Assembly: GCA_002686885.1 (NCBI GenBank)
Contig: NYYT01000017.1
Span: 41,063 to 87,276, forward strand
Direction of reading: 5' to 3'
Source of the DNA: Pedosphaera sp.
Lineage (GTDB): Bacteria > Verrucomicrobiota > Verrucomicrobiia > Limisphaerales > AAA164-E04
DNA: 46,214 nt
Below, piece after piece: positions 661-35,189 of this stretch (the first letter of the stretch is position 1; every line of letters begins with the position of its first letter). The position numbers and the translations under genes are program-made. The notes below the pieces were generated by a model. It was not told the origin of the DNA. It saw nothing but the letters and a program-made list of their open reading frames with translations, and did not search any database.

Positions 661-1842
661 GTGATGCGTGAAGGACGTATGCAGCGCAAGGTGGTTCATC
701 TGGACGCCGATGCCTTTTTTGCTTCGGTTGAGCAGGCTTCGGATACACGTCTGAGAGGTAAACCTGTAGCTGTGGGGGGGGAGAAGCGAGGCGTGATTGC
801 CGCGGCATCCTATGAAGCAAGACGCTTTGGTATCCGTGCGGCCATGCCGACCCTTCAGGCGCGAAAGTTGTGTCCGCATTTGATCCTTCTTCCTGGGGAT
901 TATGAGAAATATGAGCGGTTTTCCCGCTGGATGTTTTCCTATGCCTACGATTTCACTCCCGACGTTGAAATCACGTCGATTGATGAAGGTTACTTTGATC
1001 TGACAGGTGTGAGGTGTGACGCTCCGGAGGTAGCCCGTCGCATTCATCGCGCCATCGGGCAATCCCTCAAAATATCCGTAAGCGAAGGAATGGGCCCCAA
1101 CAAGCTGATCAGTCAAATTGCTTCCAAACTACACAAGCCTGCCGCGTTTCAGTCGGTGGAGGCAGGTTATGAAGAAGCGTTTCTTCATCCGCTTGCCAAT
1201 CACTGGTTGCCCGGTATTGGCCCCAAAACTTCGGCCCGACTGTGTGCGGCAGGCTTGGCCCGTATCGGGCAGCTTGCCGGGACCCGCACGGATCTGCTGC
1301 ATCTCCTCTTGGGACGTATGGCACCTCAGATTCGGGCCTTTGCAGCAGGGGAGGATGATCGTCCCATTGTGCCGGTATCCGCTCCTGCCAAGTCTTATGG
1401 AAAGCAGAAAACGTTTTCCAAGGATCAGACCGATGAGGATCTCATGGTGGCAACCCTCAAACAGATGGCCGATACTCTGATGGTTCGAGTGCGCGGCGAT
1501 GGCAAATCCATTCGTACACTCTCCGTCAAGGTGCGTTACAACGACATGGAAGAGGATCAGTGTTCGGAGAGTCTGGATGAGCCCACCGATCTGGAAAACG
1601 AGGTGTATGATCACGTATCACGGATGCTTCGCAAGGCATGGCGTCGAAGGGTGAGTCTGCGCCTGGTGGCTTTGAAATTTTCCAATGTTCATGCATGTGC
1701 CTATCGAGATGAATTGCTTCTGGATCGGGCAGCAGAGCGCAGGGTTGAGCAAGCACGATTGGTTCGTGTGATGGACAGCCTTCGACGGCGTTGCGGTCAT
1801 CATGTGGTGATGCGAGGGCATGACTGGATACTCAGAGATCAG
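661..1842 (+). other. Y-family polymerase module of the fusion
   Basis: Palm, fingers, thumb and little-finger motifs in order. Catalytic acids at D15 (nt 703-705) and D108/E109 (nt 982-987), numbered from the 661 start. Confidence 0.9.
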
Positions 1843-4800
1843 TCAGGGGAAGGGAAGGCATCAATGTCTTCTCGGTCACCAGGTGGCAATGGCGGTGCAT
1901 GTCACAAGTATCGATCATCCGGCCATGGGGTTGACGTGCCATCCACTCCAGGCAAAGGAGGGGCGGTGAGGGGGCAGACTTCATCCGGTCGTTCCATGAA
2001 ATGGGTCGCGAAGCGACAGCGATATGATTCGGGGTATCCGGTTTGTCTGAATGTAAAGAGCCATTACAGTTTTTTGAACTCCGTGCTCTCAGTCAAACAG
2101 GTGGTGGATTTGGCCGTGCAACAAGGCCATTCGGCGGTGGCCTTGATGGATGAGGGGAATCTCCATGGCTCGGTGGCTTTCCATCAATATGCCACGCAGC
2201 GAGGCATCCAACCTCTGATCGGGGCGCAAATTCGAGTCGGCCGCACCCCTTTATTGCTCTACGTTCAAACCCAACAGGGCTACCAAAATCTATGTCAGAT
2301 TCTTTCCACAAGGGCTGAGAAACCGGCTCCTATGTTGGAATCCCCTCTTTGCGAAAAACCCACCCATCGCGTGAGTCGCTACAGGTCCAATTGGACCTTG
2401 AAACAATTGCAATCGCTACCTACTGATGGCCTGTTGGCGGTTGGGGGCGATCCCTCCATAGAGCCTCTTTTCAGTCGTCGATTTTATCTGGGGGTGGATC
2501 CTTTTACCGGTTCCCAAAGTTCTCGATGGCAGGACATCCCCCTTCCCAAGGTCGTGGTGCCAGCCATACATTACGCCACACCCGAGGATCGATGGAAACT
2601 TCAGGTGGTTCAGTCGATTCGTACACGCACATTGCTCAAGCAAGCACACCCCGATAAAAGCCCTTTGTCCCAAGCCTGGTTTCCAACCTCGGGATCGTGG
2701 GATCGTGTGTGGGAGACCTGTGCGCCCTGGATGCCTTACCAACAAGAAATTGTAGAGCGCTGTCGTGACTTTCGCATGCCGTTGGGCTCACCTCATTTTC
2801 CAGAGTATCACCCCCCTGACGGGGCGACCCCCCGTGAATTTCTGTATCGGCTGGTGATGCGTGGTCTGAAGGAACGCTATCCATCTGCGAAAAGGCAGCG
2901 GGTGATGCAGCAGGTGGAAGAAGAGCTGGAGACCATTCGCGAAGTGGGCTACGAGGCTTATTTTCTGATGGTTTGGGATTTGCTTCAGGCATGTCGTAGA
3001 GAAGGTATTTCATGGATCACTCGAGGGAGTGCTGCAGATTCATTGGTATGTTACTGCCTCAGGATCAGTGATGTGTGTCCCAAGCGGTTTGAACTTTATT
3101 TCCGTCGATTTCTCAATCGCGACCGTATGGCACTTAACAAACTTCCAGATATCGATGTGGATTTCCCCCATGACCGCAAGGATGATGTCGTTCGATTGGT
3201 GTTTCAGAAGTATGGGCAAAAGCACGCAGCGGTGGTTGGAGGTTTTTCCACTTACCATTCTCGGGGAGCGATGGGGGATGTTGCCAAGGTGCTGGGTGTT
3301 TCTGAACAGCAAATACGTCGTTTGACCAAGCGCTTTCCTTATGCGCGTGCCCGTGACATGCGTACGTTTCTCTTAAGTCAGAAGGAGTGTCGGGATTTGC
3401 CGTTGAATGAAGAACCCTACGCCAGTGCCTTGACAATGGCCGAATCTCTGGACGGGGCTCCCCGCTATGCCAAGATGCATCCTTGTGGATTGGTGCTCTC
3501 GGGTCGACCCATCCATGATCTGACACCCACATTCCTTTCAGAAAAAGGATATCCGACAACGCATTTGGATATGGATGCGGTGGAGGCCATGGGGTTGGTG
3601 AAGATGGATATTCTGGCTCAGGGAGGTTTGTCGGTCATGCGTGATGTGAGCCGGATGCTTGCACAACGAGGGGTGACTATCGAAATCGATCCCGGACGTG
3701 GTTGTCGTGTGTTGAACGATGATGACGTGCCAGGAAACGGCTCTCTGAAATTACCGGAAAACCCATGGGAAGATTCCCGTGTGTGGGACATGATTTCTGC
3801 AGGAGGGGCTCGAGCGGTCCATCATATCGAAAGCCCAGCCATGGTCAATCTGTGTCGCATGTGTCAGGTGAGGGATATTGACGGATTGGTGGCCATTGTT
3901 TCGGTCATTCGCCCAGGGGCGGCCAATGAACAGAAAAAGCTGCGTTTTACCCGGAGGTATCAAAAGCTTGAACCGACCGTCTATCCCCATCCAAGCCTCG
4001 AGTCCTGTCTGAGGAGTACTTTCGGTCTGGTGGTTTATGAAGAACACATTCTCCAGATCTGCGAGTCTTTTGCGGGGCTTTCACCGGGGCGTTCGGATGT
4101 GTTGCGTCGAGCGCTGAACAAGGGGAAGGAGGAAACGATCGAAGCCATTCGGTGTGAGTTTTTCGAACAGGCCAGAGGCCTGGGGCGGTCGCATGAAAGT
4201 ATTCGCGATGTATGGACCCTGGTCCGGGGCTTCAATGGGTACGCTTTTTGCAAGGCACATAGCACTGCCTATGGTGTCGAAGCCTACCAGTCTGCCTGGT
4301 TGAAGTGTTATTTTCCAATGGAGTTCATGGCGGCTGTGTTGACCCACGGCAAGGGGTTTTATCATCCATTGGTTTATGTGCTTGAGTGTGACCGAATGGG
4401 AATTGACCTTTTGCCTCCGTCGATTCAAGCACCTGGGCCGGGTTATCAGGCAGTCCATGAGAGTGAAGAGGGTCCTTCGAAAACAGGTGGCATTCGTGTC
4501 CCCATCAGCGCGATCAAGGGGCTGAGCCAACAAACGCTGGACCGATTGATGGAGCAATGGGACCGATCCAATTTTGTTTCATTATCCGATTTTTACCATC
4601 GTGTCTGGCCTCAGGAATACGAACTCGAATTACTGATGCGTGTGGGTGCTCTGGATGGTTTTGGACTTTCCCGGACGGCCCAGTTCTGGCAAATGAAACA
4701 ACTTTCTCATGCGTTTTCAGGTCACAGCATCAACGGTCAAGGGTGGTTGCTGCCTCCACAAGACAAACACCGTCTGCCCTCCGTGCCTCTTGAAGAACCG

Positions 4801-5211
4801 CCACTTCTTCAGCGCCTGGATTGGGAACAGGAATTGATCGGGTTTCCTGTTTCGGCTCATCCATTGGATCGATATCCGGAAATTGCCTGGGAAACCTATT
4901 GCCCGGTCAATCGATTGGGGGATTACATCGGGAAAGAAGTCACGACTTGTGGCCTGGTGATCGAACAACGATTACACCACCAAGTCACGGGTGAGCCCAT
5001 GAAATTTCTGACATTGGCCGATCGCAGTGGTTTGGTGGAGACGGAGCTTTTTGCCACCACTTACCGTAGCTATGGGTTGGCGACCGTTCGTTATCCAGTG
5101 TTGGAGGTGACGGCACGTGTCGAGCCTTTCGAAAATAATCGCGGTTTTTCATTAAGGGTTTTGCGTGCTGGCAAACCGAGAGCCAAAAAGGCGATGGCGT
5201 CGGTATCGTGA
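661..5211 (+). CDS. Fusion of Y-family DNA polymerase (DinB/Pol IV-like) and C-family DNA polymerase III alpha subunit (DnaE/DnaE2-like)
   Basis: Single 1516-aa ORF. N-terminal part: VVHLDADAFFASVEQ, KRGVIAAASYEARRFGIRAAMPTLQARKLCPHL, TSIDEGYFDLTG, LPGIGPKTSARL and the little-finger KSYGKQKTFSKDQ. C-terminal part: PHP-like SHYSFLNSVLSVKQVVDLAVQQGHSAVALMDEGNLHGSV, ITRGSAADSLVCYCL, LPDIDVDFPHDRKDDVV, GLVKMDILAQGG, WEQELIGFPVSAHPLDRYP and an OB-fold-like C-terminus. Start could be GTG 661, ATG 664 or ATG 679. Confidence 0.93.
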   Translation: MMREGRMQRKVVHLDADAFFASVEQASDTRLRGKPVAVGGEKRGVIAAASYEARRFGIRAAMPTLQARKLCPHLILLPGDYEKYERFSRWMFSYAYDFTPDVEITSIDEGYFDLTGVRCDAPEVARRIHRAIGQSLKISVSEGMGPNKLISQIASKLHKPAAFQSVEAGYEEAFLHPLANHWLPGIGPKTSARLCAAGLARIGQLAGTRTDLLHLLLGRMAPQIRAFAAGEDDRPIVPVSAPAKSYGKQKTFSKDQTDEDLMVATLKQMADTLMVRVRGDGKSIRTLSVKVRYNDMEEDQCSESLDEPTDLENEVYDHVSRMLRKAWRRRVSLRLVALKFSNVHACAYRDELLLDRAAERRVEQARLVRVMDSLRRRCGHHVVMRGHDWILRDQSGEGKASMSSRSPGGNGGACHKYRSSGHGVDVPSTPGKGGAVRGQTSSGRSMKWVAKRQRYDSGYPVCLNVKSHYSFLNSVLSVKQVVDLAVQQGHSAVALMDEGNLHGSVAFHQYATQRGIQPLIGAQIRVGRTPLLLYVQTQQGYQNLCQILSTRAEKPAPMLESPLCEKPTHRVSRYRSNWTLKQLQSLPTDGLLAVGGDPSIEPLFSRRFYLGVDPFTGSQSSRWQDIPLPKVVVPAIHYATPEDRWKLQVVQSIRTRTLLKQAHPDKSPLSQAWFPTSGSWDRVWETCAPWMPYQQEIVERCRDFRMPLGSPHFPEYHPPDGATPREFLYRLVMRGLKERYPSAKRQRVMQQVEEELETIREVGYEAYFLMVWDLLQACRREGISWITRGSAADSLVCYCLRISDVCPKRFELYFRRFLNRDRMALNKLPDIDVDFPHDRKDDVVRLVFQKYGQKHAAVVGGFSTYHSRGAMGDVAKVLGVSEQQIRRLTKRFPYARARDMRTFLLSQKECRDLPLNEEPYASALTMAESLDGAPRYAKMHPCGLVLSGRPIHDLTPTFLSEKGYPTTHLDMDAVEAMGLVKMDILAQGGLSVMRDVSRMLAQRGVTIEIDPGRGCRVLNDDDVPGNGSLKLPENPWEDSRVWDMISAGGARAVHHIESPAMVNLCRMCQVRDIDGLVAIVSVIRPGAANEQKKLRFTRRYQKLEPTVYPHPSLESCLRSTFGLVVYEEHILQICESFAGLSPGRSDVLRRALNKGKEETIEAIRCEFFEQARGLGRSHESIRDVWTLVRGFNGYAFCKAHSTAYGVEAYQSAWLKCYFPMEFMAAVLTHGKGFYHPLVYVLECDRMGIDLLPPSIQAPGPGYQAVHESEEGPSKTGGIRVPISAIKGLSQQTLDRLMEQWDRSNFVSLSDFYHRVWPQEYELELLMRVGALDGFGLSRTAQFWQMKQLSHAFSGHSINGQGWLLPPQDKHRLPSVPLEEPPLLQRLDWEQELIGFPVSAHPLDRYPEIAWETYCPVNRLGDYIGKEVTTCGLVIEQRLHHQVTGEPMKFLTLADRSGLVETELFATTYRSYGLATVRYPVLEVTARVEPFENNRGFSLRVLRAGKPRAKKAMASVS
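2035..5211 (+). other. C-family (DnaE-type) polymerase module of the fusion
   Basis: PDIDVDF (D830/D832, nt 3148-3156) and VKMD (D983, nt 3607-3609) match the three catalytic Asp positions of DnaE. About 1055 aa, which fits DnaE2 length. Confidence 0.9.
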
Positions 5212-29875: not shown

Positions 29876-32752
29876 ATGAAGTATCACATCTCACCTATCT
29901 TCCACTCACTGAGCGCCTGCCTATTGGCTGCCTTCGTTTCCATGACTCCTCAGGGGCAGTGTCAGCTTCAAATCAAAGACGGAGATCGCATCGCTCTCAT
30001 CGGGAATTCATTGGCTAGTCGCATGCAATACAGCGGGTGGCTGGAGTCCATGCTCCAAAGCCAATCGGAAGGGAAACATCTGGTGGTAAGGAATTTAGGT
30101 TTTCCGGGCGACCAGGTCGGAAAACGGCCGCGCAATAAAGGTTTCATGACGCCCGAGGAGTATCTCACCCATTGCGAGGCTGATATCATCTTTGCCATGT
30201 TTGGCTACAACGAATCCTTCGCGGGTGAAGCGGGATTGGAAGCTTTCTCCAAGTCGACGGTCGACATGATCGACCGTTACCGCGATCTCAAACCCAATGG
30301 TGAGTCCGAACCCGTCATCATTCTCTTTTCTCCCATCGCGCACGAGGATCTGGGGGACCGAAACATGCCTGATGGGGTAGAAAACAACGCGCGTCTTGCG
30401 CTCTACACCGCTGCCTTGAGACAGGTGGCCGTTGAAAAAAATGTGACCTTTGTCGATCTTTTTGCTGCCAGTCAGGCGCTCTATCAGGCCTCGGATAAAC
30501 CGCTCACTTTGAATGGTATCCACTTGAACGACGAGGGGAACCGTCTGGTGGGGCAGTTTATCGCCTCCACCTTGCTCAATACCACTTTCTCAGCCACTTC
30601 CCAACTGGAGGCTCTGAGACAACTGGTGCTCGACAAAAATGTGCACTGGTTCAACCGGTATCGTGCAACCGATGGCAATGACGTGTGGGGTGGACGATCC
30701 ACCCTGAAATTTGTCAACGAGCAAACCAATCGGGAGGTGCTCATGCACGAATTGATTCAATTGGACATCATGACAGCCAATCGTGATCTGCGTATCTGGA
30801 TGCATCTGGATGGTCGCAGCAAACCAGTGGATGACAGCAATGTGCCTCCTTCGGTGGCGGTGATTTCCAACGTGGGTGGGGGAAGCCCCAGCTCCAGCGC
30901 CCAGAAGGAGGGTAATTTGAAGTATTTGAGCGGGGAAGCTGGCCTCGAAAAGATGACGGTCCCCGAGGGCTTTGAGGTTGGTTTATTTGCGGACGAAGCG
31001 CGGTTTCCTGAGTTGGTGAACCCCGTGCAACTTGCAGTGGATCCTCAGGGCCGACTGTGGGCCGCTGCCTGGAAAACGTATCCCAAATGGGAGCCGCTGA
31101 AGGAAATGGATGATCGCCTGCTCATCTTGCCGGATGATAATCGGGATGGGGTCGCCGATCGTGCGATTACCTTTGCCAAAGTGCACAATCCAACAGGGTT
31201 TGAATTTTGGAATGGGGGCGTGCTGGTTGCTTCCCAGCCGGATATCCTATTTCTCAAGGATAATGATGGCGATGATGTGGCGGACGAGCGAGTGGTTTAT
31301 CTGGAGGGTATTGGCTCGGCAGATACCCATCATGCCGCCAATGCCTTTGTGTATGGCCCGGATGGTGGCATTTACTGGCAGAGTGGCATCTTTTTGGTCA
31401 ACAACATCGAACACCCCTGGAGTCCTTCGCTCAATACGGGTTCCTCCGGGATGTTCCGATTCGATCCTCGACGCTACCACATCAGTTACCATGCCGATAA
31501 CAGCCCCAATCCTCATGGTGTCAGTTTTGATAAATGGGGCTACCATTACGCGACCGATGGTACGGGGGGGCGAGCCTATCAGGTGGTGCCCGCAGAAAAG
31601 GGGTTCAAGATGCAAAAGCTTCTCGAAATGCAGGTGCGTCCCGTGCCCGCCAATGGGGTGATTTCAAGCCAACAGTTTCCGGAGGACTACCAGGGAAGGT
31701 TCATGATTGCCAACACCATCGGATTCCTAGGGATCAAACAGTATGCATTAGAACGCGATGGTGATAGCGGTAAGGTCTGGGGTGAACCTCTGGGAGATCT
31801 CCTTTCTTCGAGTGATAAAAATTTCCGACCCAGCGACATTGAGTTTGGATCCGACGGGGCCCTCTACATCTCTGACTGGCACAACGTCATTATCGGGCAC
31901 ATGCAGCACAACGTGCGCGACCCGAATCGTGATCATGACTACGGGCGCGTTTATCGTATGACCTACAAAGGCCGGCCCCTTCAATCGCCTGTCGCCATCG
32001 CAGGAGCTTCCCTGGATGCTTTGATGAAAAATCTGGAGCATCCCGTGGATGGCGTGCGTTACCGCACGCGCATCGAACTCAGTGGTCGGCCGACTGCGGA
32101 GGTGGTTCAGGCAGCGCAGCGCTGGATAGGGCAGTGGGATCCAAAGAATGCTGACCATGCTCACCACCTGCTGGAGGGGCTTTGGTTGCATCAGCAACAC
32201 AACGTACGCAACACCGAATTGTTGACCCAACTTCTCCAATCACCGGTGGATCATGTGCGCAATGCCGCACGTACCGTTCAGCATCATTGGTTTGGGTCTG
32301 ATCAAGCCCCACCCACTCTGGAAGCCGAGGACATCCTGGTCACCACGGTTGCCCCAGGGGTGACTTCCCGCACCGATCAATTGGTGGAGGTAACCATCGG
32401 TACGGTTCCTGAAAAAATGAGCTACGATCTCAAGGATTTCGAAGTCAAGGCCGGGGCCACCGTCAAGGTTCGCTTCATCAACCATGATTTCATGCCTCAC
32501 AATATTGTCTTTGGCCGCCCAGGCTCAGCCAATGACATCGGCATGGCGGCCATCGCACTGGGGGCGGATGGTTTTGCCAAGGCCTTCATTCCTGACAATG
32601 ACAAGATCCTCAAGGCCTCCAAATTACTTCAAAGCAAGGAGGAAGAGGTGGTCACATTCAAGGCTCCATCCGAAGCAGGGGACTATGACTATCTATGCAC
32701 CTTTCCTGGACACCATCTGTTGATGCGTGGGGTCATGAAAGTGGTTCCTTGA
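29876..32752 (+). CDS. Multidomain secreted protein: SGNH/GDSL-like domain, PVC-type beta-propeller dehydrogenase-like domain, C-terminal azurin-like cupredoxin
   Basis: IKDGDRIALIGNSLASRMQYSGWLESML...LGFPGDQVGKRP (SGNH-like); NPVQLAVDPQGRLWAAAWKTYPKWEPLKEMDDRLLILPDDNRDGVAD (propeller); FINHDFMPHNIVFG...YLCTFPGHHLLMRGVMKVV (type 1 Cu site). Confidence 0.88.
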   Translation: MKYHISPIFHSLSACLLAAFVSMTPQGQCQLQIKDGDRIALIGNSLASRMQYSGWLESMLQSQSEGKHLVVRNLGFPGDQVGKRPRNKGFMTPEEYLTHCEADIIFAMFGYNESFAGEAGLEAFSKSTVDMIDRYRDLKPNGESEPVIILFSPIAHEDLGDRNMPDGVENNARLALYTAALRQVAVEKNVTFVDLFAASQALYQASDKPLTLNGIHLNDEGNRLVGQFIASTLLNTTFSATSQLEALRQLVLDKNVHWFNRYRATDGNDVWGGRSTLKFVNEQTNREVLMHELIQLDIMTANRDLRIWMHLDGRSKPVDDSNVPPSVAVISNVGGGSPSSSAQKEGNLKYLSGEAGLEKMTVPEGFEVGLFADEARFPELVNPVQLAVDPQGRLWAAAWKTYPKWEPLKEMDDRLLILPDDNRDGVADRAITFAKVHNPTGFEFWNGGVLVASQPDILFLKDNDGDDVADERVVYLEGIGSADTHHAANAFVYGPDGGIYWQSGIFLVNNIEHPWSPSLNTGSSGMFRFDPRRYHISYHADNSPNPHGVSFDKWGYHYATDGTGGRAYQVVPAEKGFKMQKLLEMQVRPVPANGVISSQQFPEDYQGRFMIANTIGFLGIKQYALERDGDSGKVWGEPLGDLLSSSDKNFRPSDIEFGSDGALYISDWHNVIIGHMQHNVRDPNRDHDYGRVYRMTYKGRPLQSPVAIAGASLDALMKNLEHPVDGVRYRTRIELSGRPTAEVVQAAQRWIGQWDPKNADHAHHLLEGLWLHQQHNVRNTELLTQLLQSPVDHVRNAARTVQHHWFGSDQAPPTLEAEDILVTTVAPGVTSRTDQLVEVTIGTVPEKMSYDLKDFEVKAGATVKVRFINHDFMPHNIVFGRPGSANDIGMAAIALGADGFAKAFIPDNDKILKASKLLQSKEEEVVTFKAPSEAGDYDYLCTFPGHHLLMRGVMKVVP

Positions 32753-34262: not shown

Positions 34263-34454
34263 GGCTTATTTAGGTTTGGGATAAGCCTTTACTAAACGCC
34301 CTACGGCGACTGGAAGCAAGTTCTGAAAATGGGAAACCTGCTTCGGTGGTCGAACCAAGGCGATTGACCTGATGACATTTGGGTTTGCATGCTGTCAGAT
34401 TTGTTTAAGAATGTGGCGCTATTAGATCAAACCCAGGTCTTTGATTTTCAGTCT

Positions 34455-35189
34455 ATGAAACGTTCACTTGGTCGCGGATTGGAGGAACTCATGAAAACCT
34501 CCCGAGCAACTTCCAAAGCGGAGGGAAGCTCACAAGAAGTGTCCGACAGTCGTTTGGGGGAGGGCCCTCCAGAGGATCGTTGTGCATCCCAAGGGGGCAT
34601 TTCCAGGCTGATGAGAGGCCGCGCTTCTCATGTGGATGACGCCTCATCCGAAGGTTCAGCCCGTTTTGGCCCGGAAAGGGTCGCATCTTCAGCTGAAAGC
34701 GTTGGTTCGATCGAGCCCATGGGCTTCGCGCCCAGTTGGGTTTTTTACCTTGCTGATGCCATGGTCATGTTACTCGTATTATGGCATTGGATTCAGTCTC
34801 TCTCAGAGGGAAGGGATCCCTCCTGGGTTCTTTCCTTGGGTGCCACGCTGACCGCAGCTGGATTAGGTGTCTATCCTTGGCTGCGGAACCTTAAATACCT
34901 CGAAGGAGCGTCTACGCTAGTGCATCTTCCACGATGGAGTTGGATTCGCGAAAGCAACCTTGATGGGGAGAAAAAGGATTTTGTAGTGCATTTGCAGTAT
35001 CCTCCGGCTGCCGTTGAAATGCTCCAAACCAGCTGGGGTGAAATTCAACCTCGACCTGTCTGGTTTGCGGGTGTCCCCGATCTCACCCCTGATCAGTTGC
35101 AAACATTCCTCCGAGAGGCGCAATCGTTTTTTCAGGAGCAGTGCGAGGACTCTTCTTCGAAAGCCTCCTCATGTATTTCCGCCGCTTGA
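34455..35189 (+). CDS. Hypothetical two-TM protein with ParB-like N-terminal peptide
   Basis: MKRSLGRGLEELMKTS at the N-terminus, a low-complexity linker, two hydrophobic segments (WVFYLADAMVMLLVLWHWI; WVLSLGATLTAAGLGVYPWL), then a soluble C-terminal region. Internal ATG chosen over 34389. Confidence 0.6.
   Translation: MKRSLGRGLEELMKTSRATSKAEGSSQEVSDSRLGEGPPEDRCASQGGISRLMRGRASHVDDASSEGSARFGPERVASSAESVGSIEPMGFAPSWVFYLADAMVMLLVLWHWIQSLSEGRDPSWVLSLGATLTAAGLGVYPWLRNLKYLEGASTLVHLPRWSWIRESNLDGEKKDFVVHLQYPPAAVEMLQTSWGEIQPRPVWFAGVPDLTPDQLQTFLREAQSFFQEQCEDSSSKASSCISAA

Follow-up and report, generated by a model that had tools for sequence, protein, structure and literature searches.

The open reading frame at positions 34455–35189 of the window (the whole 46,214-nucleotide stretch of DNA that was analysed) encodes a protein that we read as a membrane-anchored partner of the chromosomal ParA, which would capture and activate nucleoid-bound ParA through one active and one arginine-less peptide; from its sequence and that of its relatives, the probability of this reading is put at roughly 0.6. 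The tip of the protein resembles the ParA-binding peptide of ParB, and relatives across the order suggest an undescribed membrane-bound ParA partner.

The translated protein begins MKRSLGRGLEELM. An alternative ATG lies upstream at 34389; however, the orthologues begin at the same M-K, and 34455 is thus the likely start codon. AlphaFold2 (eight orthologues) gives a disordered N terminus (residues 1–93), two helices (95–118 and 124–151), and then a domain of four strands and a helix. Confidence in the model of the whole protein is low (pLDDT 58), whereas the C-terminal domain modelled alone reaches a mean pLDDT of 83. No signal peptide is apparent. A Pfam search of the protein returned no match and no ParB domain, and neither Pfam nor the AlphaFold2 layout places a ParB_N CTPase domain, a helix-turn-helix (HTH), or a C-terminal dimerisation domain anywhere in it; because these three elements are missing, the protein is not a ParB. 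The sequence-only reading had described a linker and two transmembrane (TM) helices where a ParB domain would be expected, and the modelled helices and the empty Pfam search agree with it. A Pur-alpha-like topology was considered for the C-terminal beta4-alpha domain (E = 0.2) and rejected, as the isolated domain has no significant fold match; a comparison of this domain with PDB sequences likewise gave no match, and the domain is left unassigned. The features are collected in Table 1.

Table 1. Features of the window protein and of its gene (positions in the window).
Feature	Position	Strand	Basis and remarks
Whole coding sequence	34455..35189	+	244 aa; open frame, orthologues begin at the same Met-Lys
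Copy 1, putative ParA-binding peptide, residues 5–13 (LGRGLEELM)	34467..34493	+	Conserved in orthologues; equivalent to ParB N termini of the order and to M. xanthus motif residues 11–19 (PMC12462528)
Linker A, disordered, Ser/Gly-rich, residues 14–44	34494..34586	+	pLDDT < 50, unconserved
Copy 2, degenerate, without Arg, residues 45–55 (SQGGISRLMRG)	34587..34619	+	Family-linker scan; conserved in orthologues
Linker B, disordered, residues 56–94	34620..34736	+	Low pLDDT up to residue 88, unconserved
TM helix 1, residues 95–118, with invariant Asp101	34737..34808	+	AF2 helix; D101 identical in 42 members
TM helix 2 and extension, residues 124–151	34824..34907	+	AF2 helix; conserved across family
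C-terminal beta4-alpha domain, residues 159–236	34929..35162	+	AF2 of domain alone; missing from most family members

The N-terminal ParA-binding motif of ParB has been defined as (L/F/I)G[KR]G(L/F/I) (PMC12704722), and LGRGL at residues 5–9 of the window protein has this form. In Myxococcus xanthus, the motif was delimited experimentally as ParB residues 11–19 (PMC12462528); the window protein shares its hydrophobic spacing (i, i+4, i+7, i+8) and its central arginine, as seen in L11, R13, L15, L18, and I19 of the M. xanthus protein. ParB N termini in 30 genomes of the order read M[AS]KxxLGRGL[GS][AS]LL or near it, hardly varying within the order, and are of the same kind as the family peptide; that of the ParB from the same genome is MSNSPLGRGLGALLGG.

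Conservation is concentrated on the same residues. In an 11-sequence alignment, the commonest residue accounts on average for 0.79 of the sequences at residues 5–13, against 0.30–0.32 in the linkers (permutation p ~5e-5). Across 42 aligned family members, the nine positions read L-G-[RK]-G-L-x-x-L-[LM]; the first glycine and the third leucine are invariant, and an arginine or lysine occupies the arginine position in 42/42. This wide set was gathered with motif-containing profiles, and conservation of the motif within it is therefore partly a product of selection, whereas the close orthologues came from a full-length search. One orthologue from the same family (G007) has a damaged motif, SGRGIGELK. 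The sequence-only reading had proposed the ParB-like LGRGL peptide and had named a lack of conservation in orthologues as one outcome that would refute the proposal. This outcome did not arise: few parts of the family are as well conserved as the peptide, and the translation, this conservation, and the agreement with the ParB peptide encoded in the same genomes together uphold the resemblance.

Pattern searches, from which all motif counts derive, indicate how specific the peptide is. A relaxed motif searched in six frames through the 4.27-Mb genome of the organism gave 20 matches, of which ParB and the window ORF were the only two at a plausible protein N terminus. A stricter N-terminal pattern was run over 78 genomes, with counts taken from the 58 (G000–G057) with known ParB positions; ParB was detected in 52 of these 58. 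The 54 matches comprised 40 ParB proteins, 7 members of this family, and 7 others, such that ~87% (47/54) belong to ParB or to the peptide-hairpin family. A reversed-pattern control returned 6 matches in the same 58 genomes, which is about the rate of the 7 other matches.

A degenerate second copy of the peptide lies further along the disordered tail. Relatives' sequences aligned to residues 45–55 include VGRGVGSLLQG, IGRGLGTLIKG, IGQGLSSLLQG, and VSPGVGRLLHG, and the best match to the consensus ParB peptide falls at exactly this aligned place in 38 of the 42 family linkers. The summed score stands 16 standard deviations above shuffled linkers (z = 16), a value that overstates independence, as the sequences are related; in the window protein alone, copy 2 is not significant (p = 0.43). 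The region is conserved in the close orthologues (11-sequence alignment), and it follows copy 1 at a spacing of 21–44 residues across the family. Its arginine position holds an arginine in only 6/42 members and a lysine in 1/42.

A full-length search detected an orthologue in nine of the ten further genomes available for this family, together with one weak match elsewhere; G009, also of the family, gave no match. Profile searches found short relatives in many families of the order (Limisphaerales/Pedosphaera-type Verrucomicrobiota), and the public records of the closest relatives are Verrucomicrobia metagenome-assembled genomes and one single-cell genome, with Pedosphaera sp. and a Limisphaerales bacterium among them. 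Homologues with the same peptide-TM layout, for which the sequence-only reading had advised a search, thus occur across the order. The layout common to the 42 members is an N-terminal peptide of the ParA-binding type, the degenerate second copy, and the TM hairpin. Most members are ~115–185 aa in length, consisting of peptide, linker, hairpin, and a short end; the C-terminal domain is confined to the window protein's own family and a few others. In a class-wide sample, the peptide-plus-hairpin form appears in at least 31 genomes of the same order among the matches listed, and the listed matches outside the order all begin well past the peptide and span the hairpin region. Neither Pfam nor NCBIfam gave a significant match in any of the 42 members, and the family is without a covering model in either collection.

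The hairpin itself has a wider distribution. The window protein carries the signature P-x-W-x-F-x-x-A/G-D-x-x-L-L ... G-A ... P-[FW]-L, common to GrpE-domain and coiled-coil proteins of the class, and profile matches to these proteins (~300 aa and ~500 aa, respectively) are restricted to the hairpin part. The GrpE-domain proteins were rejected as family members, given that they share the hairpin only and the motif is missing in those inspected. In these proteins—at L126:6001-6855, at L128:1566-2474, and as ~300-aa frames in many genomes of the order—the same TM hairpin precedes a coiled coil and then a GrpE domain (E = 5e-12 for Pfam GrpE), which reads as a membrane-anchored GrpE-like protein. 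The hairpin also opens coiled-coil proteins of ~480–570 aa in other orders of the class (L221–L223), which end in a conserved C-terminal segment, TAYIGIGNxLFIRGxGPGLSW.

Family searches of the organism's own genome found one chromosomal ParA (C83), and this is the sole positioning-type ATPase found there. No MinD was found by the same searches, in an assembly ~93% complete in which absence is not proof, and the other ATPase-family matches look by sequence like Mrp, two BY-kinases (tyrosine-kinase-like), FtsY, and PyrG. The ParA could be aligned along its length with the ParA structure 8ray, which, judging from the substitution and the length, is probably the M. xanthus D60A construct. Y81, D110, and E117 of the M. 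xanthus R13 pocket are retained, as are the hydrophobic residues at 116, 150, 152, and 155, all of which belong to the ParB pocket in M. xanthus ParA (PMC12462528); the alignment used shows no conservation at pocket positions 82, 187, and 192, of which 187 and 192 lie near gaps.

Gene order adds little. At the relatives' loci, neither parA, parB, nor a constant neighbour lies beside the gene, and neighbourhood was set aside as evidence: the neighbours vary between families and also between genera, with a divergent Gfo/Idh gene in some and a downstream gene of aconitase-like sequence appearance in others. Within the order, the search for parA next to parB was likewise negative in 31 ParB loci (including L149–L178 and the organism's own ParB at L049, with its own ParA at L050) examined over flanks of up to ~1.5 kb; the lack of linkage to parA is therefore weaker counter-evidence than usual. 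Set against the class of ParA/MinD ATPase-activating proteins, the window protein has a short disordered peptide, of a type suited to the ParA pocket, and a cognate ParA in the genome with most pocket residues retained, but not adjacency to the ATPase gene, which is usual for the class although not strictly defining. It might act on its ATPase as ParB-type activators do.

In the mechanism proposed, the TM hairpin would anchor the protein in the inner membrane, leaving the disordered N-terminal tail in the cytoplasm, with LGRGLEELM at its tip mimicking the ParA-binding peptide of ParB. L5, L9, L12, and M13 would insert into the pocket at the interface of the ParA-ATP dimer, with R7 triggering ATP hydrolysis by ParA; in the M. 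xanthus ParB peptide, the hydrophobic residues are required for binding, whereas R13 serves activation more than binding (PMC12462528). Copy 2, ~40 residues on, retains the G-h-x-x-L-h half and, because its arginine is usually lost, would bind the second, symmetric ParA pocket with little or no activation, thereby contributing avidity. The M. xanthus ParA dimer does have two pockets, and linked peptides gain avidity (PMC12462528). The result would be short-lived links between the membrane and nucleoid-bound ParA, ended by hydrolysis, through which ParA might be cleared near the membrane, the membrane tethered to the nucleoid, or the membrane protein placed relative to the nucleoid. We infer ParA binding, activation, bivalency, topology, and cellular role alike. 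The 'positioning or segregation adaptor' of the sequence-only reading is one of several possible outcomes; that interpretation stands as regards the conserved peptide and a likely target ParA with much of the ParB pocket, and it had missed both the second copy and the C-terminal domain. The broader picture, to which we would give slightly less than an even chance, is that the chromosomal ParA of the order is served by two activators—ParB at the chromosome and a membrane protein with an active/Arg-less tandem—so that one and the same peptide code drives its cycling between nucleoid and membrane.

The tail might instead act as a decoy or brake that competes with ParB for the ParA pockets and, by sequestering ParA at the membrane or discharging it there, limits ParB-driven movement in space or time, rather than serving as a cargo adaptor. 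The peptide is the same as that of ParB, and the mostly Arg-less copy 2 would bind with little activation, as the R13A data suggest (PMC12462528); a pure decoy, however, would have no need of the basic residue that every member keeps in copy 1, and this account appears rather unlikely. Less probable still is that the peptide binds another Walker-type ATPase or a different cytoplasmic partner, its likeness to ParB reflecting a common docking mode and not a common target. Characterised ParA/MinD partners do generally use short positively charged peptides (PMC13170346), yet the peptide here is of the ParB type (LGRGL), more than merely basic, and ParA has no rival positioning ATPase among those found in the genome. 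Chance resemblance, or a membrane-targeting sequence with no role in ParA biology, would suit a short basic peptide that adjoins the start codon of a gene unlinked to parA or parB, but it fits poorly with position-specific conservation in 42 divergent members, with the existence of a second copy, and with a variable linker that parts the peptide from the TM region, which a signal-like sequence would adjoin; we regard it as very improbable. A reversed topology, with a periplasmic N terminus and the motif used otherwise, is hardly credible, for although positive-inside charge counts do not clearly fix the topology, no signal peptide is seen and several short members end shortly after TM2 in K/R-rich tails, which favour the C terminus, and hence the N terminus, lying inside.

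Returning to the membrane-anchored ParA partner, several known systems offer comparisons. Chromosomal ParB of ParABS has, in the same genomes, a disordered N-terminal tail with the same peptide near its start; unlike ParB, the window protein has a membrane hairpin in place of the CTPase fold, HTH, and dimerisation domain, and two peptide copies per chain, the second mostly lacking the arginine. HubP and TipN are polar landmarks linked to ParA and are large scaffolds. Neither is known to have an LGRGL peptide. HubP is membrane-bound (PMC8789113), and the likeness lies in a membrane protein acting on ParA, an action that is proposed for the window protein. PadC of M. xanthus, encoded next to bacNOP, is an adaptor whose ParB-like domain binds ParA and so brings it to bactofilins (PMC5703909, PMC12704722). 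The window protein resembles it as a predicted second ParA-binding protein besides ParB that would tie ParA to a fixed cellular structure; it has, however, just the peptide and TM helices and no linked gene. PomX and PomY likewise provide two activating elements for one ParA/MinD ATPase, PomZ; that of PomY lacks the positive residue and, in a model, occupies a site that overlaps with the ParB pocket (PMC13170346), a precedent for an element of this sort. These are two separate proteins acting on a different ATPase, whereas the window protein carries both elements, with copy 1 of the ParB type, on one membrane protein. Noc, a ParB-like nucleoid occlusion protein, also joins the ParB world to the membrane, but binds DNA and membrane by a CTP switch and is without the ParA-binding motif (PMC8429893, PMC12704722). 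Literature searches on LGRGL with ParA found nothing relevant, and no family of this sort turned up in the open literature when the motif and membrane proteins that bind ParA were searched for; PadC and PomX/PomY come nearest in idea.

Two other genes of the window were recorded. At 661–5211 (+), a single ORF of 1516 aa begins as a Y-family polymerase (IMS, IMS_C) and continues as a Pol III alpha of the DnaE type (PHP, alpha, finger, HHH); several genomes of the order have the fusion in one long frame (57–73% identity), besides separate DnaE and DinB-like genes, and it looks like a fused translesion mutasome. At 29876–32752 (+), an SGNH/GDSL hydrolase domain, DUF7133, and a copper domain of the plastocyanin type are combined in a single 958-aa ORF.

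The usual picture of ParA gives it a single activator, ParB. If the reading is true, ParA would gain a second address through a membrane protein that bears the ParB peptide and is conserved across a verrucomicrobial order, and LGRGL would be a portable ParA-docking motif for which proteins other than ParB can be screened. The tandem of an active and an Arg-less peptide would offer a natural test that binding and activation are separable, and the family as a whole would hint at how Limisphaerales tie chromosome segregation to the envelope.
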